Of a stretch of 33,786 bases of DNA, positions 248 through 33,363 are shown piece after piece. The stretch comes from a virus, in IMG/VR virus record IMGVR_UViG_3300046777_000727, positions 1 to 33,786 of that record, one strand, 5' to 3'. A model generated the notes under the pieces. The model saw only the letters and a program-made list of their open reading frames with translations, did not search any database and was not told where the DNA came from. A program made the position numbers and the translations under genes. Each line of letters starts with the position of its first letter. Positions within the stretch are counted from its first letter, which is position 1.

Positions 248-2680
248 TTATCCAAGTCTTGCCAAGTCCTCAACCTTTTCGCGCACTTCCTGCTGTGAAG
301 CAACATCTCCCGCAAGCACAAATGCACGTGGTGTTATTTGCTCAGGTTGGTTCTGTATGAACTGCGCAGCGAGCGGGTTGAACTGTGCTGGTTGTGTCTC
401 TGCACCTCCTCCACCCGTGGAAGGCACATTGGTATTTGTGCTACTATCACTTCCGCTCGTGCTTCCAAACTGCGAGTTCTTAATTTTAATAATTTGCGCC
501 AAACCTAATGCACCAGCAAGAGCAGCTTCAACGAACTGAGCACCTGTGGCAAGTTTGATTGGGTTACCGCCCGCTGTTAATGCACCTGTAACCGCGGATG
601 CCGTTTGCACAGTTGCAGCACCAATGGCTAACGCCTTATCTGTTTTAAATTTCTTTCTTGCATCACGTTCACTATTCTTTGTTGATGCATCACTGAATGC
701 TTGAATTATTGCTATTGCATTTTGCGCAAGTTCCAGTCCTTTCTTAAAACCTTCTTGACGTATTTCTGTTTTCTTTGCCTCACTATCAGCTGTCGTTGCT
801 ACTTCTGTTGCCGTTGCTGAAGCTGTAACTGCAGCTAATTCATCTTGCCATTTCTTTGTAATTTCAGTTGTATCTAATCCGGCTGCTTCGGCAAGTGCAA
901 TTAACTTTTCATATTTCTGACTAATAGCTAGTTCTTCCTTTTCTTGATTGGTTAATCCAGCTACATATTCAGCATCTTGTAATTGTGCGAGTTCAGTATA
1001 ATACGCATTTGCTGCATCCAATCTTTTTTGAGCCTCTTTTAATGCAGCTTCAGTTTTTGCTTTTTCACCATCTTCAAATTCTTTTAAATTTTCCTGATAT
1101 AACTGATTTAATAAATCACTTACTTCTTGCTCAGCCTTCAACTGTGCATCTGCCGCATCCTTTGCGGCCTTTGCTTTATCATCCGCTGCTTTCTGTGCCG
1201 CTGCCTTTTCCTTAGCCTCTTGAGCATTGAGAATACCATCACGTGTATTAGTTAAAGTCTCTAATGACTTTTCTGCGTCCTTAATTATTTGCTCCTGATT
1301 CTTACGCTCGGCCTCGGGATCAAAAATTTTTTTAGTGATAAATTCATTGACGTTATCAAATATTTTGGAGGTATCAATGGTTTCTAATCCCAGTCCAAGT
1401 TTATTCAATACGCCAATAGCACCATTGACAAAATTGTCAAAGAACTCAGCAATTTTCTTTTGAGGATATGTAACAAAGTCAAGGAATGTACGGAGGTATT
1501 CGGCATTGCGTTCCGCTGCTTTGATTTGACCTTCTGCCTGAATACGTGTTGTTTCAATCACTGCCTGCTGTTGTGCAATGGCAGTGTTTAACTGAGAAAT
1601 TTTGAGTGCTGTGATTTCTTTCTCAGTCATTCCTTGACGCTTCAAGGTTTCTTCGGTGGCTGAGATACGGTCGTATTGCTCCTTGGCTAAGGTCGCACGC
1701 TCTTTTTGCACTTCGAGTGCTTGCTGCTCAGCATCCGTAACACCGTCAATAAGTGACAGCAACTCATCAGCATAAACAATTGCAGCGGCAATGGCAGCAC
1801 CAATTAAAAAAATAGGATTAGTCAATAGTGCCTTACCTACCGATGCAAATGCACTGCCGATGCTGGATATACCTTTGGCAATATCACCCGGCTTGACTTG
1901 ACTAATATTTACAGCTAACTGTTTAGCCCCTTCAGCCGCACCTTCAAAATCAAGGTTGGCAATACGTGAGGTCACAAGTCCGAGTGAACCGCCAACGCGC
2001 TCGAATGCACCACCTGCCTGTGTTCCTACTGCTTGTGCTGCATCTTGAATCTTATCTTTCAATTCACCCGCCGCTGCTGCAAGTTCACGGTACTTTGCAC
2101 TATCAGGGTCAGTAGCCGCAAGCTGTGCCTGTAATTCACGCAGCTGTGCTTTGAGTGATTTGGATGATGTTACAACTTCTTCTTGTGTTACAGCTAAATC
2201 TTTATACTCAGTTGCGGCTGTATCAAGATTGCTAGTATCAACCTTTGTATCTTTTAATTCCGTGTTGAGATTCTCAGTTGCATTTGCTAATTGATTAACC
2301 GGTGTAACTACGTCTTGCACCGCATCGCCTACATTTTCAATGTTACGTGCAGCATTACCTGTATCAATATTTTGAATTGCATCACCTACCTTTTCAATCT
2401 TACTGGCGTCAATAGATTCTATTGCAGTTCCAATGTTGGAAATATTGCCACTTTCAATATTGGTAATTGTACTTTCTAATTCTTGGATTTGCGCGTTTAC
2501 ATCCGCAAAAGCTTTGCTATTTGGCTCAAGTCCATTTAGCTGTTCATCCAGTTTAAGTAATTGGTTATATAACGCATCAAGTGAACTTTGTGTAGCAATA
2601 GTACTCGCGTCAAGACTTCTAAGATTTTGCTCTGCTTGCGATGTGTCAATTACAAAAGTTCTAACAATAGGCTCTGCCAT
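248..2680 (-). CDS. Tail tape measure protein
   Basis: The 810-residue protein sets tail length and probably helps DNA entry. Residues 1-260 are heptad-rich and Gln/Asn/Asp-rich (SQAEQNLRSL, LDALYNQLLKLDEQLN), as expected for long coiled coil. A hydrophobic stretch follows at about 285-315 (NPIFLIGAAIAAAIVYADEL), typical of tape measures. Long Ala/Lys/Glu helices with AQKAADDKAKAAKDAADAQ come next, and the C-terminal part has a second Ala/Gly-rich hydrophobic region and a Gly/Ser/Thr-rich linker. The start overlaps the stop of the 59-residue gene upstream (TAATG), so translation is probably coupled. No peptidase or lysozyme domain was recognised in it. At 2.4 kb it predicts a short tail of roughly 120 nm, using the usual rule for tape measures. 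Confidence 0.85.
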   Translation of the reverse strand: MAEPIVRTFVIDTSQAEQNLRSLDASTIATQSSLDALYNQLLKLDEQLNGLEPNSKAFADVNAQIQELESTITNIESGNISNIGTAIESIDASKIEKVGDAIQNIDTGNAARNIENVGDAVQDVVTPVNQLANATENLNTELKDTKVDTSNLDTAATEYKDLAVTQEEVVTSSKSLKAQLRELQAQLAATDPDSAKYRELAAAAGELKDKIQDAAQAVGTQAGGAFERVGGSLGLVTSRIANLDFEGAAEGAKQLAVNISQVKPGDIAKGISSIGSAFASVGKALLTNPIFLIGAAIAAAIVYADELLSLIDGVTDAEQQALEVQKERATLAKEQYDRISATEETLKRQGMTEKEITALKISQLNTAIAQQQAVIETTRIQAEGQIKAAERNAEYLRTFLDFVTYPQKKIAEFFDNFVNGAIGVLNKLGLGLETIDTSKIFDNVNEFITKKIFDPEAERKNQEQIIKDAEKSLETLTNTRDGILNAQEAKEKAAAQKAADDKAKAAKDAADAQLKAEQEVSDLLNQLYQENLKEFEDGEKAKTEAALKEAQKRLDAANAYYTELAQLQDAEYVAGLTNQEKEELAISQKYEKLIALAEAAGLDTTEITKKWQDELAAVTASATATEVATTADSEAKKTEIRQEGFKKGLELAQNAIAIIQAFSDASTKNSERDARKKFKTDKALAIGAATVQTASAVTGALTAGGNPIKLATGAQFVEAALAGALGLAQIIKIKNSQFGSTSGSDSSTNTNVPSTGGGGAETQPAQFNPLAAQFIQNQPEQITPRAFVLAGDVASQQEVREKVEDLARLG

Positions 2681-2859
2681 TAGCTGAATAGATTATAGAT
2701 TAAGTACATGATTCCAAAAACTAATATGCTTCGCCATGTGTATAGTGTTACTTTCCATAGTCCACGCTGCCATTTGCGCAGCGCATAGTTGTGTACCTTG
2801 CTTGGTGCGATTCCTAGTTGTATCAATCGCATGCTGTTCTTAATTGATTGTCCGCTCAT
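2680..2859 (-). CDS. Small basic protein with one membrane-like segment, before the tape measure
   Basis: A 59-residue gene fills the gap between the large tail protein and the tape measure. Its ATG overlaps the stop of the upstream gene (ATGA at 2859-2856) and its TAA overlaps the tape-measure ATG. It begins MSGQSIKNSMRLIQLGIAPS, is Arg/Lys-rich in the middle (RKWQRGLWK), and ends in a hydrophobic stretch (SILVFGIMYLIYNLF). Tight coupling on both sides argues that it is real. The function is unknown; a role in tail assembly or in membrane contact during infection is a guess from position. Confidence 0.7.
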   Translation of the reverse strand: MSGQSIKNSMRLIQLGIAPSKVHNYALRKWQRGLWKVTLYTWRSILVFGIMYLIYNLFS

Positions 2860-5800
2860 CGTACTGCTGTGTATTGTAATGTTACTGTTGTAAAGAATGT
2901 GTATGGATATCCTGTGCCGGTGGTAATAATCTCAAGTCGATGTTCGGCTGTATTCGTTGCCGTATCAATATTGATTGCAAAGTTCACCGTACCAAAACCG
3001 TTATCCTCACTGATTAATATAGCACCTGTTGCAGCGGCTATGCTTCCCACCTTTTGAAGCGTGACCATGTGCAAGCCGTTGTAAGTTGTCTGAGTTGCAA
3101 TATCTGTAACATTGATATGAAGTAGCACCGACCAAAAACTGTCATCGGGCATGCTCAAGTGAACACCCGTATTATCAATAGTCGGTTGAATAATATCTCC
3201 ACTTATGGCCAGTGCATCTTTGCTGCCTAACATGATTATACCGTACTGCGTGCCTCCTTCATTTTGACCGCGATCGTCAAGCTTCCATCCACCGCCAAGG
3301 TGAAAACCACTCTGTGAGGTGAGCACATTTTTGCCAAACATGCTGTTACCGTTTACGGATTCGGTTAGCTTCAAAGTATCACCTACTGCAATCATATTAT
3401 TATTACCGTCAACTATGGATAATTCAACACCTTGTTGTACCGAACGTGAATTACCATCTACCGTTTGCGCTATTACATTGCGGGAGATTGGGTTAGTATT
3501 TGTGCCTGTAATGCCGTTGGTCGGTAAACTACCTTGGTTATTGAATGAATAACACTCACCTGCACTCTCACTCCATGTGTAGCCATATCGCACACAACAG
3601 CTTTGTGTTGCTGCTACTGGGTCGCCATTGCCGTCAATAAAATTAACTGTGCCATTAATGTTGATTGTATCAGGTGTGCTTGCACAGTCCGCTTCACTAT
3701 CGATGTACTTAATCAATTTCACTTTGGTAGATTCAAACATGCCCACCTTGTAATCTGTTATCTCAAGGATACGCCACTGTGCATTCTGAACATGTATAAT
3801 ATCACTAAACTTAAAGGTGAGAATATCGCTAAGGTCAAGTGCAAATGATGCCTCCATAATTCGCGCATTAGGCGAATAAAGTTCATTGAATGCGTTACGC
3901 CAATAGGTGTTGAATAGATTGAAGTATGGATTTGCATTGATAATGAACGGTGGCGTTTCAGGTGCAAAGTTCAAATCATAGTCAGTAATAGTAGCAGTTA
4001 CCGAACTATAATTATTAAGCACAGTAACTCCAAATGCAACAGGTGCTTGAACTCCTATACTATCATCAAATAATTGTATTTGATATGCATTAGCAGCAAA
4101 TAAGGCACGAGGCCCAGGCACTACAAATTCGTTATTATTATTTAGGAATTGCGGAATTGGTATTAGTGTGCCGGGAATATTACCCGCTGGAGTGCTGCGT
4201 GTGACTAATTGCACAGTATTATCACCTTGCACAAACGTGCTAATCGGTACATCAGGATTAACACTATATCCCTCTGCTTTATATTCGCCATATACACGCC
4301 CGTTATCTTTGTAAAGCTTTCCTAAATAATCCTCTCCTGCTGTATAGCTAAATAATGTTTTGGCTTTTTGCAGTTCAGTAGTTGAATAAATGGTAATGTC
4401 TTTACCGATATCTAACTTCTGATTCCAATCTAATACATCGCCACTACCTATATAGCTATTGTATGGCACAATGCTAATCTTATTTGGATTAATTCTATCA
4501 GGTACAATAACGCAATTGTGCATCTTGATAACGTCATTGACAAAATCCGCTTGACGCATATCGGGTGCATTGAGATTGTAGGCTATTGTAGATCCATAAT
4601 TAAATCTTGTACCAACCAATTCTATGAGTGATGAACCTAAGTCACCACTACCTGCTAATATATACACATCAGCTATTCCACTTCCGGCACCTCCAGCATT
4701 TACAATTTCATATCTAAATGCAAATTCAACTGTATCTCCCGCTTCTAGATTCATTCCGTATAAAAAGTCAACAGTTAAATTAGCTGAATAGCCAAAATCT
4801 TCAATAAAAATTGGCGTGCCACCATTGACCCTATAATATATTTTAAAAATAGTGAAATTACCAACGCCCGCGTAATTCAAACTTTGTAATGCTAAAGTGA
4901 AGTGGAATGTATATAACCCACCTCCCGGCGCAGTATATACTCCCGTTGTAGGGTCATAGTCATTATTATTGTCAAACGCTTCCGATACAGGTGCATAATA
5001 TTGATAAGGACTAATAGAGCCACTTGGAGCAAATGGCATTGTAATAGTGCTTGCATTATATGCACGGAAAGCATATTGCGGCCCTAGGTCATCAGTATCT
5101 AAATAGCTTTTATTTATCCATGGCATGTGATAACCCGCTAGGATATTAAGCAATGATGCAGCCTCAAGTTCAAAACCCGCATCTGCTATGATTTGCTCAA
5201 GCAAATAATCCCACCTAAGTGCTGGAGTTAAATCCACAGCATAAAGTGGTGTTGCACTGTTACTGATTCTACGAGTTCCGGCTTGACCTTGCTCACTCCA
5301 TAGCTGCCCTCTATCTACTAATGTCCAAATGCGAGCCGATGTTGTAATTGTTACGTTGTCATATATTACAGTCTCATTTAGGTTAGGCAGGTCTTCAATA
5401 TCCTTCAGTTTCTTTTCACCGATAGCCTTGAATAAATCAGGTGTCTCAGCGTAGAAGGCTAACTCTATCTCATTAATCTTGCCCATCTGTTGATACACTT
5501 TGCGCACGCGGATGTAACCTTTTGCAATGGGCAGCGTATCTACCCGAATTTCAGCGGGTAGTTTGTAGTGGAAAAAGTTGTTTAATCCACCATCATAGTT
5601 CACATCAAATAATGCACCCAGTGCAAGTTGATTGCGATCGCTGTAAGGCACTCTGAACTCACGACTAAATGCGCCTAAGGACGTGAAGTTGTTGAGGTCA
5701 GTATAACGCCAATTCTGCGAGATACTTTCGTTCTCGAAAAGGTCGAGGTAATATTCAGTAGACGCAGGTACTGAACCGTAAAAGTTAAAGGTTATACTTT

Positions 5801-18947: not shown

Positions 18948-19718
18948 ATGGAACAAGTACTATTTAGAGCATCGCAGCTGGGTAAGCTAATGACCGATGC
19001 ACGCACCAAAACAGGTTTAAGCGAAACAACTAAGAGCGCACTTCTTGAAATCTATGTGCAACAGCGATACAAGCGCTATAAAGAGATTAGCAACAAGTTT
19101 ATTGAGAAAGGTCTAGCAGTTGAGAATGATGCAATAGACATGTGGCGTAGAGAGCGCAAGGCAATTGTATTCAAGAATGCAGAGTTATTTGCAAATGACT
19201 TTGTGAAGGGCACTCCCGATTTGCTAATCAAAGACGATGAGACCGACCTAGTTGTAAATGTGCCGGATATCAAATCTTCATGGGACATCCACACCTTTAT
19301 TGATGCAAAGGTGAATGACTTGAGTAAGGATTACTATTGGCAAGGCCAAGCCTACATGTGGCTCACAGGTGCGCCTATCGCTACATTCTGCTTTGTGTTA
19401 GTCAATGCACCGCTGCAAATGATTAACGATGAAAAGTATCGCCTTGCACGCCGCATGAATCTCATCGATGCACAGAGTGACCCTACCTTTGTAAAGAAAG
19501 CAAAGAACATCGAGCGTGCAATGATTTACGATATGAAGCAATTTCTAAACGATTACCCTGATGCGAATCTAGAAACCGACCTTAGCGAGTGGGTGTATGA
19601 TATACCAGTGCAGGACCGCATCCATGAAAAGGTTGTGGAGTTTGATGCTGACGCAATCGCGAAGCTTCAGGAGCGTGTACCAATGTGGCGTGAATATCTT
19701 AATACTATTAAATTATGA
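18948..19718 (+). CDS. YqaJ-type recombination exonuclease
   Basis: 256 residues with the PD-(D/E)xK fold of lambda exonuclease/YqaJ enzymes. Visible motif positions: EKGLAVENDA (Glu59 region), GTPD (Asp91), VPDIKSS (Asp107, Lys109) and YYWQGQAYMW (Gln132/Gln134). The product degrades one strand of double-stranded ends so that the annealing protein encoded just upstream can load. Its leader is AATCAATAACAATAACAA. The stop overlaps the DUF6378 gene by four bases. The C-terminal 70 residues (DLSEWVYDIPVQDRIHEKVV) are typical of Bacteroidota phage members. Confidence 0.85.
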   Translation: MEQVLFRASQLGKLMTDARTKTGLSETTKSALLEIYVQQRYKRYKEISNKFIEKGLAVENDAIDMWRRERKAIVFKNAELFANDFVKGTPDLLIKDDETDLVVNVPDIKSSWDIHTFIDAKVNDLSKDYYWQGQAYMWLTGAPIATFCFVLVNAPLQMINDEKYRLARRMNLIDAQSDPTFVKKAKNIERAMIYDMKQFLNDYPDANLETDLSEWVYDIPVQDRIHEKVVEFDADAIAKLQERVPMWREYLNTIKL

Positions 19719-19981
19719 ACATATTAGAAAAAGCAAACGAAATTGTATTTTTAAGGGCTGAAGAAAAGCAAAGACAATATGGAGATTTTCATATGTGCAT
19801 GAAAAAAACAGCCTTAATAGCGTCCGAAATATCTAATAAACCAATTACAATAGAAGATGCTTATTATGTTTTAATAGCCTTAAAATTAGCGCGGCAATCA
19901 AACTGCCATAAAGAAGATAACTTACTTGATCTTGTTGCTTACGTCGCATCTTTAAATGATTTTTTAAATAAAAAACTATGA
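19715..19981 (+). CDS. DUF6378 protein, nucleotide-metabolism cassette
   Basis: 88 residues, helical: EEKQRQYGDFHMCMKKTALI, then ITIEDAYYVLIALKLARQSN, then KEDNLLDLVAYVA. The order R-x-YGDF, a long helix, LKLAR and KxDNxxD matches DUF6378, a small phage family of unknown function that resembles all-alpha MazG-like folds. It starts the AT-rich block and overlaps both neighbours by four bases, so it is probably translated with the thymidylate synthase homologue. A nucleotide-binding or hydrolysis role is a guess from the fold and context. Confidence 0.7.
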   Translation: MNILEKANEIVFLRAEEKQRQYGDFHMCMKKTALIASEISNKPITIEDAYYVLIALKLARQSNCHKEDNLLDLVAYVASLNDFLNKKL

Positions 19982-20757
19982 ACATATACGAAAAAAAGTA
20001 TTGCAAAATTTTAAGCAAGTGCTTATCTAAAGGCGTAAAAGTTCAGGGGCGCAATGGATTAACATTGCAATTAACAGGGCAACAGGTTCAAGCTAATTTA
20101 TCAAATGGTTTTCCGGTAGTAACCGGTAAAAAAGTTTTTTTTAAAAGTGCTTTAATAGAAGCCGAGTGGATGTTAAAAGGTTTAACAAATACAAAATGGT
20201 TAAATGAGCGCGGTGTAAAAATATGGGATCAATGGAGTGATGAAAATGGCGATTTAGGGCCGGTATATGGCCATCAGCTTATAAACTTTAACGGCATTAA
20301 TCAACTGCAGCAAATAATACAAGAGGCAAAAATAAATCCGGCTAGTCGCAGATTATTATGCTCAATGTGGAATCCATCTGATATAGATAAGATGAAGCTG
20401 CCCCCTTGCCATTACAGCTTTCAATTTGTTATTTCAGGCAAGCGGGTAGATCTTATTGTTTCCATGAGGTCTTTGGATTTATTTGTTGGGCTTCCTTATG
20501 ATATGATTATGTATGCCGGCATTTTAGAAAGCTTTTCTAAAGAGCTAAATTTAAAAAGCGGTTGTGTAATTATTAATGCAGCTAGCGCTCATCTATACGA
20601 GGAGCATATTGAAGCCGTAAAACTTTACATATCAAATAAAAAGCACAAGCTACCAAGATTAAAAAATAAGCCATCCATTTCAAATTTTTTGGCGGATGAC
20701 TTTGTAATAAATAATTACATCTGCGAACAAAGAATAAAAGTTAACGTAATAAAATAA
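19978..20757 (+). CDS. Thymidylate synthase family enzyme with dCMP-type active site
   Basis: 259 residues, clearly of the ThyA fold: WDQWSDENGDLGPVYG (83-98), catalytic Cys144 in LPPCHYSFQF, Arg164 and Asp167 in RSLDLFVGLPYD, and His205/Tyr207 in AHLYEEH. The position of E. coli Asn177 (in GLPFN), which selects dUMP, is Asp175 here (GLPYD). Phage dCMP hydroxymethylase carries Asp at this site, and changing Asn to Asp shifts thymidylate synthase toward dCMP. The likely product is therefore 5-hydroxymethyl-dCMP or 5-methyl-dCMP for modified phage DNA. Which of the two is formed cannot be read from the sequence. The gene is strongly AT-rich compared with its flanks. Confidence 0.8.
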   Translation: MNIYEKKYCKILSKCLSKGVKVQGRNGLTLQLTGQQVQANLSNGFPVVTGKKVFFKSALIEAEWMLKGLTNTKWLNERGVKIWDQWSDENGDLGPVYGHQLINFNGINQLQQIIQEAKINPASRRLLCSMWNPSDIDKMKLPPCHYSFQFVISGKRVDLIVSMRSLDLFVGLPYDMIMYAGILESFSKELNLKSGCVIINAASAHLYEEHIEAVKLYISNKKHKLPRLKNKPSISNFLADDFVINNYICEQRIKVNVIK

Positions 20758-20769
20758 AAAAAATTAATT

Positions 20770-21357
20770 ATGAATTTAAAAAATGAATTTGCTCCAATCC
20801 GGGAATGGGCTACTGAGCGCGGCCTATATGAAAAAGGAAATGTAAAAACTCAATTCCTTAAACTAAATGAAGAAATAGGCGAACTATCTAGAAGCATACT
20901 AAAAGATGACTATGATGAATACAAAGACGCAATAGGCGATATTGTTATTGTGCTTACTAATATGGCTTATATGACTAATACAAGCATTGAAGAATGTATA
21001 AACGGGGCTTATCAAGAAATTAAAAATAGAAAAGGTTCTATGATTAACGGCACATTTGTAAAGCAAGAAACAGAAAAGCAAATAGATAGCCATAACTTGT
21101 CCGAAATAAAAAAGCCAAGCTTATATGTTGTAACTAATATAAGCGCACCATATGACGGCCCATTTTCAAAAAACATAATTACATACACACTTGAGCAAGG
21201 CAGCCAAATAATTTACTGGCATGAAGGGCCAAATAAAAGACTAGACGCAAAGATTGGAGATTTAATTGAAAATATAGTTTTATATGAAAACAATAGCATT
21301 AACTATAAAGAGTCAAGCGTAAAAGTAACTACTCCACAAATAAAAATTGATTTATAA
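20770..21357 (+). CDS. MazG-like pyrophosphohydrolase with a C-terminal extra domain
   Basis: 195 residues. Residues 1-105 carry the MazG-type signature: KLNEEIGELSRSI (EExxE), then DEYKDAIGDIVIVLTNM (ExxD), and RKGSMINGTFVK. Such enzymes cut dNTPs to dNMPs. Next to a dCMP-type thymidylate synthase homologue, a dCTP-cleaving role like T4 gp56 would both remove dCTP and supply dCMP. Residues about 115-195 (PSLYVVTNISAPYDGPFSKN, then QGSQIIYWHEGPNKRLDAKI) form a beta-rich domain I do not recognise. The leader is AT-rich and ends AATTAATTATGAA, shared with the gene at 22143. Confidence 0.75.
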   Translation: MNLKNEFAPIREWATERGLYEKGNVKTQFLKLNEEIGELSRSILKDDYDEYKDAIGDIVIVLTNMAYMTNTSIEECINGAYQEIKNRKGSMINGTFVKQETEKQIDSHNLSEIKKPSLYVVTNISAPYDGPFSKNIITYTLEQGSQIIYWHEGPNKRLDAKIGDLIENIVLYENNSINYKESSVKVTTPQIKIDL

Positions 21358-22885: not shown

Positions 22886-23926
22886 TTATCTAATTTTGCC
22901 ATTTACAATGCGATAATTACTCACTTCAAAATCTCCAGTATCCATCACCTTGATATGCGCGAAGCCGTGGTGATGTTTGTTAATGGGCATATAATCAGGA
23001 TGCAGCTCGCACAGACACGCTACACTCCAGCATGTTGTTAGCTTGCCATTGATGTTAGGCTCAGTGTGCTCACTTGCCTGGTGATGATGTCCGCACAATG
23101 CGTTAGCCTTGGCACGTAAGAATAGACCACGTGCGATGTTCACAGGACTAAACACCGATGCACCTAGTTCATGCCCGTGTAGTATTGTCAAGTTACCCGC
23201 GTGGATTACTTGCTTATCCGGTATGAACGTAATATCCAACTTGTCAAGATGCATGAGTGATTCAAAGCTAAACTCATCCATACCCAAAAGGTCGGGAGCA
23301 TTGCGCATAATGTAGTGGTCATAGCGCACATCGTGATTGCCACACTTGTAATAGATCGCTGCCTTTGGGAATAGTTTGCGGACGGTCTGTAAAAATTGCC
23401 GCGTCATCAATACCTCGTGACCAAAGTTTCTTTTGCGTGGGTCTTTCTCAAATCGACTGATGGCGTAGAAGTCTATAATATCTCCATTCAACAGAATAGT
23501 ATTAACTTCATTCTCCATCCCATACTTCAGTGCCAGCGTCAACGCTTGGATATTGTGATAAGGCACATGTATATCCGACAATAGCAAGATGTCGTTATGG
23601 TTGGTCGGTAACTTGTACGGTTGGTAGTTTGATTCCTGTGATGGGGGCAAGTCTAGTGGATTGCTCGCCTGTGGCACTAACTCATCGAGCATCTGACTAA
23701 AGTCTGATAGCTTAGTCTCAAGTTTGGATAGATGCCCGTTTAATGGCTTTTGCGGCAGTTGTTTTTCATAACCTACATTGTCATTGCGCCATTGTTGATA
23801 CATGCGCAGAAAGCTTTTGTATTGCAGCGTAATGCCATGCTTTGCCATTGCGCCGCGCACCCTTTCCGATAACATGCCTTCGCCATTCCAAATCTCTTTA
23901 TAAATCTCAACATGGTTTTTTTGCAT
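22886..23926 (-). CDS. Calcineurin-like metallophosphoesterase
   Basis: 346 residues. The catalytic motifs are all present: SDIH (Asp118, His120), NGDI (Asp149), GNHD (196-199), HGHE (250-253) and GHHH (279-282). The first 100 residues, with YKEIWNGEGMLSERVRGAMA, look like a separate helical DNA-binding-like region, and a linker rich in Pro/Ser joins them. Phage members are phosphodiesterases of uncertain substrate (RNA, DNA ends or nucleotides). It lies after the lysis genes in the late operon; its start overlaps the coiled-coil gene by one base. Confidence 0.8.
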   Translation of the reverse strand: MQKNHVEIYKEIWNGEGMLSERVRGAMAKHGITLQYKSFLRMYQQWRNDNVGYEKQLPQKPLNGHLSKLETKLSDFSQMLDELVPQASNPLDLPPSQESNYQPYKLPTNHNDILLLSDIHVPYHNIQALTLALKYGMENEVNTILLNGDIIDFYAISRFEKDPRKRNFGHEVLMTRQFLQTVRKLFPKAAIYYKCGNHDVRYDHYIMRNAPDLLGMDEFSFESLMHLDKLDITFIPDKQVIHAGNLTILHGHELGASVFSPVNIARGLFLRAKANALCGHHHQASEHTEPNINGKLTTCWSVACLCELHPDYMPINKHHHGFAHIKVMDTGDFEVSNYRIVNGKIR

Positions 23927-31311: not shown

Positions 31312-33363
31312 TCACATCGCTTGAACTACAACACTGCCAACATCATTTGTTGGATTATTATCAGGTTGCTCATTTACACTTACCACTGATACTTTAAAAG
31401 TCTGCGGAAATACTGTGCCCGCACGCGGATACATCACATTGCCTATTGATCTACCCTGCCCGGTTGCAAGTGTATCCGTGCGAGACCATGTACCTGTTTG
31501 ACCTGCGAACTCCCACTTGAGTTTGTAACTTGTCACAGTTGCAGCTCCACGATTAGTTGCACGAATACCGATGCGCACGCGGTCAGGTGCGAGCCATGTA
31601 TAGCCAGTGCATACTACTTCCATATCATAATTACCCACAGGCACAGGTGCATTGATGGTGATTGCTGTTGTAGCCATGTTATCACCTTCATTGCTTTCAA
31701 CTATTGCACCTTGAGTATCCAAGTATAGATTAAACTTACCTACACCGCTGACGTTGTTAGGCACTACGTAAGGCACTGAACCTGTAAATGAAAGTTGACC
31801 TTTCAAGATAGTTACATCACCCGTGTAGAATGTTGACTTCATGCCATCAGGGCGAATAAACTCAAGTGCAATGTTTGTTGTTATATCCTTATCACTTGCT
31901 TTGTCAAGTTGCGCAGTATAAATAACATTCACTTGTGTGCCTTGATTCACCGATGCAGGTGAAGATACAGTTCCAAATAAATTGATGTAGCTAACAGGTG
32001 GTGGTGGTGGCTCAACTACTCCACCTTTTGCTGCGATTACTGCCGCATATAAATCAACAACACCGTAACCTAACTCAAGTGATTTGCCCGTTGCATCATA
32101 AACATAACCGCCACTTTTCTTAGCTGTATTCTTTATGATTTCAGTTACCTGCGATTCGGTCAGTGAAGGATTAGCAAGTACAATAGTAGCAGCACAACCA
32201 GCCATAATAGGACAGGCGGCAGATGTTCCACTGAAGTTAGTATAATTCGACGTAGCGTTGTACCCTGACGCTCCGCTACGGTCAACAGTTGGGCAAGCCA
32301 CGCCCGGAGCTGCTGCAAAAAGTTTTGTGCCATAATTTGAAAATCCAGCGCGTGTATTGTTTTGTGCTGATGCGCCAACAGCATGCACCATTGATAATGA
32401 TGCGGGGTTAATGTTTACACTGGATGAATAGTTGTTACCGCTAGACGCAAATACGCAAATACCCTTACCATTTCGACCTGTATTCTTTGCAAGTGTGAGT
32501 GCATTAGCAAACATTGGGTATGTATTACCACCACCCCAACTCATGCTAATCGCAGCACAGTTAGGATTGGCAATGGCCTTATTAACGGCTCGCGTTACTA
32601 TCGTATCGGATGTGAAGAATCCACCGCCACTATTGCTATTCATACCGATGTGCAAAAATTGCACTTTGAGTTTGTTGTTTCCTATTGAGGAAACTCCCGT
32701 ATCATTGCCCGTCTTAGCGCAAATCAATCCGCTGCAAGGTGTGCCATGCTTTTCATATTCGCTAATTGGTCGGACATCTGCTGTATCATAAACGCAGTTC
32801 CAAGACTTGTCACTGATAGTGCCTTGCAAATCTTCATGATCAACTTCACACGCAATATCCAATACTGCAACTTCAGCATAGGCATCACTTTTAATCATTC
32901 CCCAAACATCTTGAGCTTGAAACAAATTGAGATGCCATTGCTGCGGAACTGTCATTTCTGCATTAGCCTCGAATGGTTGAATGTAATCTGGCTCTATGCT
33001 AATGAATAACTTGCTACGCATGAGTGATTCGTAGAACTCATCGAATACTGAAAATGCAGTAACCTCAATAAACAGCGTCTTTGTGTCTTTAAAGGTCTCT
33101 ACAATCTTGACCTGTTTAACTGTAAGGAACTCAACAGCTGCATTGAGGTCATTACAAATGGCAATGGCTAGACCTGAACTAATCTTGTCTAGTCCAGCAT
33201 CTATTTCATTGACCTGTGAGACCTTCGCTGCATCGGGCGTAACATGCTCCGCATCTTCAAATACCACGATGCCAAAAGCATCAAACACTGCTTTGACGTT
33301 TGGCTTTGTTTTGTTTTTTTCAAAAGACTTTTTGTCTTTGAACTTAACCGCATTTATTTTCAT
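31312..33363 (-). CDS. Subtilisin-like serine protease (S8) with Ig-like C-terminal domains
   Basis: 683 residues. The S8 triad is complete: Asp169 in VAVLDIACEVDHED, His206 in EKHGTPCSG, and Ser381 in FSGTSAACPIMAG; Asn310 in ASSGNN is the likely oxyanion residue. Residues 1-135 look like a propeptide. A Pro-rich linker (EPPPPPVSY) at about 452-460 precedes CARDB-type beta-sandwich repeats (INLFGTVSSPASVNQGTQVN, and NKYDMEVV-like GNYDMEVVCTGYTWLAPD). No signal peptide is seen. The ATG overlaps the XkdF-like protease stop (ATGA). Substrate could be head proteins or a host surface protein; both are inferred. Confidence 0.85.
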   Translation of the reverse strand: MKINAVKFKDKKSFEKNKTKPNVKAVFDAFGIVVFEDAEHVTPDAAKVSQVNEIDAGLDKISSGLAIAICNDLNAAVEFLTVKQVKIVETFKDTKTLFIEVTAFSVFDEFYESLMRSKLFISIEPDYIQPFEANAEMTVPQQWHLNLFQAQDVWGMIKSDAYAEVAVLDIACEVDHEDLQGTISDKSWNCVYDTADVRPISEYEKHGTPCSGLICAKTGNDTGVSSIGNNKLKVQFLHIGMNSNSGGGFFTSDTIVTRAVNKAIANPNCAAISMSWGGGNTYPMFANALTLAKNTGRNGKGICVFASSGNNYSSSVNINPASLSMVHAVGASAQNNTRAGFSNYGTKLFAAAPGVACPTVDRSGASGYNATSNYTNFSGTSAACPIMAGCAATIVLANPSLTESQVTEIIKNTAKKSGGYVYDATGKSLELGYGVVDLYAAVIAAKGGVVEPPPPPVSYINLFGTVSSPASVNQGTQVNVIYTAQLDKASDKDITTNIALEFIRPDGMKSTFYTGDVTILKGQLSFTGSVPYVVPNNVSGVGKFNLYLDTQGAIVESNEGDNMATTAITINAPVPVGNYDMEVVCTGYTWLAPDRVRIGIRATNRGAATVTSYKLKWEFAGQTGTWSRTDTLATGQGRSIGNVMYPRAGTVFPQTFKVSVVSVNEQPDNNPTNDVGSVVVQAM

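Follow-up and report, generated by a model that had tools for sequence, protein, structure and literature searches.

What does a thymidylate synthase (TS) homologue act on, and what does it make, when the residue that selects the pyrimidine is Asp instead of Asn? The question is raised by a gene on the viral record IMGVR_UViG_3300046777_000727, a single record of 33,786 bases with no end repeats, which is referred to here, over its whole length, as the window. In TS, the uracil determinant is Asn177 (PMC8670742, PMC5175136), and an Asn-to-Asp change shifts the enzyme to dCMP, yielding 5-methyl-dCMP (PMC8670742, which refers to Liu and Santi 1992 among other work). The TS sequences of cytosine-modified environmental contigs mostly have Asp177 (PMC8670742). 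The features relevant to the question are:

19715..19981, + strand: DUF6378 protein of 88 aa (PF19905, E=2.5e-11); the cassette begins with this gene, whose stop codon overlaps the TS start (ATGA)
19978..20757, + strand: TS homologue, predicted dCMP C5-methylase (PF00303, E=9.7e-73; AlphaFold2 pLDDT 94)
20398..20400, + strand: Leu141, equivalent to E. coli Leu143; Asp in T4 gp42 and SPO1 gp29 (alignment; PMC6400193)
20407..20409, + strand: Cys144, equivalent to the catalytic Cys146 of E. coli TS (alignment)
20464..20466, + strand: Met163, equivalent to E. coli Gln165; Met in 45/45 family members (alignment)
20500..20502, + strand: codon GAT for Asp175, equivalent to E. coli Asn177 (gap-free alignment, GLPFN / GLPYD)
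20770..21357, + strand: MazG-like all-alpha NTP pyrophosphatase of 195 aa (PF03819, E=9.6e-5; PHROG 1992, E=3.4e-36)

The TS reading frame runs from ATG to a stop codon and encodes 259 aa. Its score of 245 bits against Pfam PF00303 (cut-off 24.3) makes it a member of the TS superfamily, and it also matches PHROG 160 (E=4.7e-81). In the structural comparison with ThyA that the initial annotation had proposed, the AlphaFold2 model superimposes on E. coli TS with a VIA-align Z of 36.6 and an rmsd of 1.2 over 255 residues, up to the last residue of the tail (E. coli residue 264). That annotation had equated Asp175 with E. coli Asn177 and had described the catalytic Cys, Arg, Asp, His and Tyr as kept; both statements are borne out by the alignment. 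Besides Cys144, the window enzyme retains Arg124/125 (E. coli R126/127), Arg164 (R166), Ser165, Asp167 (D169), His205 (H207), Tyr207 (Y209), Glu61 (E58), Trp83/Trp86 (W80/W83) and Tyr97 (Y94). It is about 36% identical to E. coli ThyA and shares its fold, catalytic residues and tail length, but differs from it at Asn177, Gln165 and Asp205. From here on, positions 79, 80, 83, 93, 143, 147, 165, 177 and 205 are given in E. coli TS numbering.

Scans of viral contigs show that Asp177 is a fixed trait. It is found in all 45 sequences of the window family (the window included; about 19 after de-duplication at 90%), most of which are 49-100% identical to the window TS, the two most divergent being 45% identical. 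Both GAT and GAC encode the residue within the family, and pairwise dN/dS is 0.05-0.17, which indicates that Asp177 is held by selection and that the enzyme is not decaying. Asp175 is therefore neither a chance substitution nor a sequencing error. In comparison, the best 80 cellular homologues (at most 43% identical to the window TS) all have Asn177. Two further positions change together with 177: Gln165 is replaced by Met in 45/45 family members, and position 205 is Asn, Ser or Ala in 45/45 (Ser in the window). Among 103 Asn177 sequences, which include the 80 cellular ones, Asp205 is kept in 102, while Met165 occurs without Asp177 in 13. A tree built from 118 sequences unites 29 viral Asp177 enzymes whose active sites are TS-like in one group (support 99/90), and T4 gp42 and the Xp12-type enzymes fall outside it; the tree is rooted at the midpoint and has some long branches, so that Asp177 may have arisen once or several times. 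No isolate among 50,697 phage records has a TS more than 41% identical to that of the window. In a second group of viral Asp177 enzymes (L072, L077, L079, L080, L082, L083, L085, L087, L089, L092-L095 and L097), Asp takes the place of Trp83 and Tyr that of Ile79; these too have an adjoining MazG gene, and their chemistry may differ again. With Asp177 fixed in the viral clade and co-varying with 165 and 205, the substrate is likely a cytosine nucleotide, dCMP, as had been suggested from the Asp alone.

The initial annotation had also likened the enzyme to phage dCMP hydroxymethylase. Here, the residues do not agree. Two residues are reported to permit hydroxymethylation in T4 gp42 and have been proposed as a mark of hydroxymethylases: an Asp at the third position ahead of the catalytic Cys, and a Ser at the second position ahead of the active-site Tyr (PMC6400193). 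SPO1 gp29, a dUMP hydroxymethylase with Asn177, has Asp at 143 too, and both phage enzymes lack Trp83 and His147. The window TS has one feature of the T4 gp42 type, namely the Asp at the pyrimidine-selecting site. The residue three before its catalytic Cys is Leu141 in place of Asp or Glu, as it is Leu in 45/45 family members, and Pro and Val precede the active-site Tyr (GPVYG) in place of Ser or Thr two residues before it. The C-terminal tail of TS, which seals the active site, is lost in T4 gp42 and fully kept in the window. More broadly, T4 gp42 resembles the window enzyme in its selecting Asp, Met165 and Ser205, but it has Asp143, Thr147 and Val83 and no tail, none of which the window shares. 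The missing signature residues rule out a hydroxymethylase as the first choice. Instead, Asp177 in the company of W80, W83, L143, H147 and the tail makes the window enzyme look like a dCMP methylase, and 5-methyl-dCMP is the more likely predicted product over 5-hydroxymethyl-dCMP. The suggestion that the phage DNA carries 5-hydroxymethyl- or 5-methylcytosine is thus narrowed by the active-site residues, which favour its second half and not its first. Position 147 was reportedly ranked beside 177 by MetaGPA, and the His147 kept in the window counts against the methylase reading.

Enzymes of this kind are already known; what is new is the TS-like Asp177 clade with a conserved cassette. The engineered L. 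casei N229D and E. coli N177D enzymes have the same Asn-to-Asp change at the pyrimidine-selecting residue with most TS residues kept, whereas in the window the change is natural and fixed, is accompanied by others at 165, 205 and the last tail residues, and is part of a phage cassette. The DNA of phage Xp12 contains complete 5-methylcytosine (PMC7653180). The Xp12 side of our comparison is represented by the relatives AXL1 gp63 and PaMx28 gp52 (Pamexvirus-Bosavirus) in place of the Xp12 genome MT664984. Like the window TS, these have Asp177, replacements of Gln165 and Asp205, no acid at 143 and, in AXL1, an adjoining pyrophosphatase gene of the PRA-PH type. Unlike it, they have Phe83, Ala93, Asn143, Pro147 and a shortened tail (the window has Trp83, Val93, Leu143 and His147), form a separate clade and have DHFR and dCMP deaminase genes nearby. 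With five differing features and a separate clade, the Xp12-type enzymes are the nearest functional precedent and not close homologues. Pelagibacter phage Kolga EXVC016S (L196, an isolate; TS locus 2032-3686) shares Asp177, Trp80, Trp83, Leu143 and His147, but its TS is only 37% identical and has Asp93 and Cys145. In Kolga and its closer contig relatives the gene lies between a DUF1599-like gene, whose Pfam score in Kolga falls short of the cut-off, and a PRA-PH pyrophosphatase gene, so that the flanking families differ from those of the window.

In the window, the TS gene is the middle one of three, DUF6378 - TS - MazG-like, on one strand with overlaps or short gaps. This arrangement is found in 32/32 family contigs compared in detail, and other window genes are common to far fewer of them. 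The cassette has a GC content of 32.4%, compared to 42.1% for the genome, and the lowest-GC stretch of cassette length starts at 19721, six bases after the cassette does; this suggests that it was acquired by recent transfer. The MazG-like protein consists of about 100 aa of MazG, with an EExGEL...ExxDAxGD motif (EExxE...ExxD, metal-binding) that is conserved in 25 aligned sequences, followed by a 95-aa C-terminal extension (residues about 100-195). Absent from 24/24 aligned relatives, the extension is confined to the window lineage, which includes the near-identical L002 and L003. The DUF6378 protein, modelled by AlphaFold2 as a four-helix structure (pLDDT 85.7), is 49-77% identical across 24 aligned relatives. 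Comparison with the PDB by sequence, by Foldseek and by VIA-align yielded nothing convincing, and its hhalign matches to MazG and to the Kolga DUF1599-like protein are weak and lend no support to a relationship. In the proposed pathway, it would be a further nucleotide-handling partner. In one relative (G002), a PAPS-reductase-like gene (L182, 6422-7297, - strand) lies about 5 kb from the cassette.

The pairing of TS with a pyrophosphatase largely follows the residue at 177. In profile searches, a MazG gene no more than 1 kb from TS was found in 44/44 family contigs, in 15/17 contigs with other Asp177 enzymes and in 0/22 viral contigs with Asn177; for DUF6378 the counts are 43/44, 2/17 and 0/22. 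When the Asn177 contigs were rechecked over the same distance, PF03819 was found in 0/22 and PF01503 in 2/22. Set against 2/22, the pairing gives Fisher p values of about 6e-15 and 1e-6, which make the difference look stronger than it is, as the contigs include near-copies. The two exceptions, L078 and L019, have a viral Asn177 TS with a PRA-PH pyrophosphatase within 1 kb and show that the pairing also occurs outside the Asp177 enzymes. PF01503 also co-occurs with TS on modified contigs (PMC8670742). The adjoining MazG-type pyrophosphatase fits a remodelling of the nucleotide pool. The window's MazG type is common among phages (1334 records), and dCTP as its substrate here is therefore a prediction only.

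A precedent for such a division of labour is cyanophage S-2L, in which MazZ makes dGMP for the neighbouring PurZ and host enzymes complete the triphosphate (PMC8342488). The logic of its Z-cluster (PurZ, MazZ, DatZ) is alike in that a MazG-type hydrolase supplies the monophosphate to a base-modifying enzyme and the host finishes the triphosphate, but the modified base is the purine 2-aminoadenine and not a cytosine, and the enzymes are unrelated except for the MazG type. By analogy with MazZ, the MazG-like pyrophosphatase of the window would hydrolyse host dCTP to dCMP, both feeding the methylase and depleting unmodified dCTP. The Asp177 enzyme would then convert dCMP and methylene-tetrahydrofolate to 5-methyl-dCMP through attack by the Cys, methylene transfer and hydride transfer, and host kinases and the host DNA polymerase would bring 5-methyl-dCTP into the phage DNA. 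DNA with 5-methylcytosine would resist many restriction enzymes, and its most likely role would be protection from the host. We consider it reasonably probable that the phage uses its TS homologue as a dCMP methylase of this kind, with MazG-supplied dCMP and a product incorporated by the host. Counting against this pathway, no 5-methyl-dCMP kinase was recognised. A broader proposal is less likely than not: that DUF6378 - TS(Asp177) - MazG is a mobile module that converts phage cytosine to 5-methylcytosine by itself, with only kinases and polymerase from the host. Bacteroidota-type and other phages would have acquired it as the equivalent of the Z-cluster for cytosine, and DUF6378 would have a new enzymatic role in it.

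The top portal and terminase matches of the window are phages of Bacteroidota, e.g. Nonlabens P12024S and Flavobacterium phage 11b, which makes a Bacteroidota host likely. The initial annotation had described a phage without its own DNA polymerase, and this holds for family A, the one family covered: PF00476 matches nothing in the window or in the 15 relatives covered. Relatives do encode helicase/primase, ERF and RecE-type proteins. Modification of cytosine after replication was set aside, as searches of the window and of a set of relatives turned up neither C5-methyltransferases (PF00145) nor Tet/JBP proteins (PF12851), the latter in a weak search whose control matched no genome. Elsewhere in the window, a 683-aa protein in the structural gene region (31312-33363, - strand) has subtilisin-like motifs (GTSAACP), and a metallo-phosphoesterase-like protein (22886-23926, - strand; PHROG 221, E=2.5e-39) is encoded near the lysis genes.

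Restriction-site statistics were considered as an indirect sign of modified cytosine, and were dropped as support because they are mixed and lineage dependent. Avoidance of GC-containing palindromes in the window (0.79/0.71) is about equal to that in cassette-free Bacteroidota phages (0.75-0.78/0.65-0.71), which argues against a long-standing complete protection. GATC occurs 28 times in the window, compared to 126 expected; GGCC (0.74) and CCGG (0.89) are not strongly avoided, nor is GCGC under-represented. Some cassette-bearing relatives avoid many restriction sites. In Flavobacterium phage 11b and P12024S, GGCC and CCGG are nearly missing, and both phages encode an N4/N6 DNA methyltransferase, which is found neither in the window nor in ten cassette contigs, as if one protection had been swapped for another. 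Overall, the site statistics fit a recent acquisition or a partial replacement, and give no clear support for full replacement of cytosine.

Four other explanations were weighed against the methylase. A dCMP hydroxymethylase like T4 gp42, which would lead to 5-hydroxymethylcytosine DNA, would agree with the Asp177 and Met165 shared with T4, with the Ser205 shared with T4 and SPO1, and with the association of Asp177 TS with modified cytosine in viromes (PMC8670742). However, the window enzyme departs from gp42 at both proposed marks, Trp83, His147 and the tail, and from SPO1 gp29 at the residue three before Cys, Trp83 and His147, and no glycosyltransferase was recognised among the scanned window proteins; we regard this explanation as unlikely. 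Slightly less probable is an ordinary thymidylate synthase that tolerates Asp and raises dTMP during infection. Many phages have ThyA-like genes, and the fold and the remaining active site are those of TS, but no member of the clade departs from the Asp, the changes at 165 and 205 accompany it, Asn177 is the uracil determinant in the literature (PMC8670742, PMC5175136), and the cassette is found in 0/22 Asn177 viral TS contigs.

The remaining two accept the chemistry or the cassette and question the modified DNA. That the cassette acts on the free nucleotide pool as a counter-defence, leaving little modified base in DNA, is as improbable as a tolerant synthase: MazG-like and DUF6378 genes do flank TS, and restriction-site avoidance persists in cassette genomes, but the cytosine specificity of the TS would be left unexplained and PADLOC models match no cassette protein. 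Least likely of all is that 5-methyl-dCMP is a mere step to dTMP by deamination. The Xp12-type loci do hold a dCMP deaminase beside TS, but none is present in the window cassette or its counterpart in 32 contigs, where only the DUF6378 and MazG-like genes accompany TS, and the adjacent pyrophosphatase would fit the removal of dCTP better.

The methylase reading, if it holds for the clade, has consequences beyond this phage. Among TS relatives, a residue rule (177, 143, 147, 83 and tail) could set predicted methylases apart from hydroxymethylases; taken by themselves, 83, 147 and the tail are not decisive, as is seen from the Xp12-type enzymes, which depart from the window at these three. To our knowledge, complete 5-methylcytosine DNA is firmly known in very few phages, namely Xp12 and perhaps its close relatives. 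Were 5-methyl-dCMP the product throughout the clade, DNA of this type would be widespread in uncultured viruses, through a compact mobile module that works without a phage DNA polymerase; this would bear on how phages escape restriction, and would offer a minimal in vivo system for writing 5-methylcytosine into DNA.
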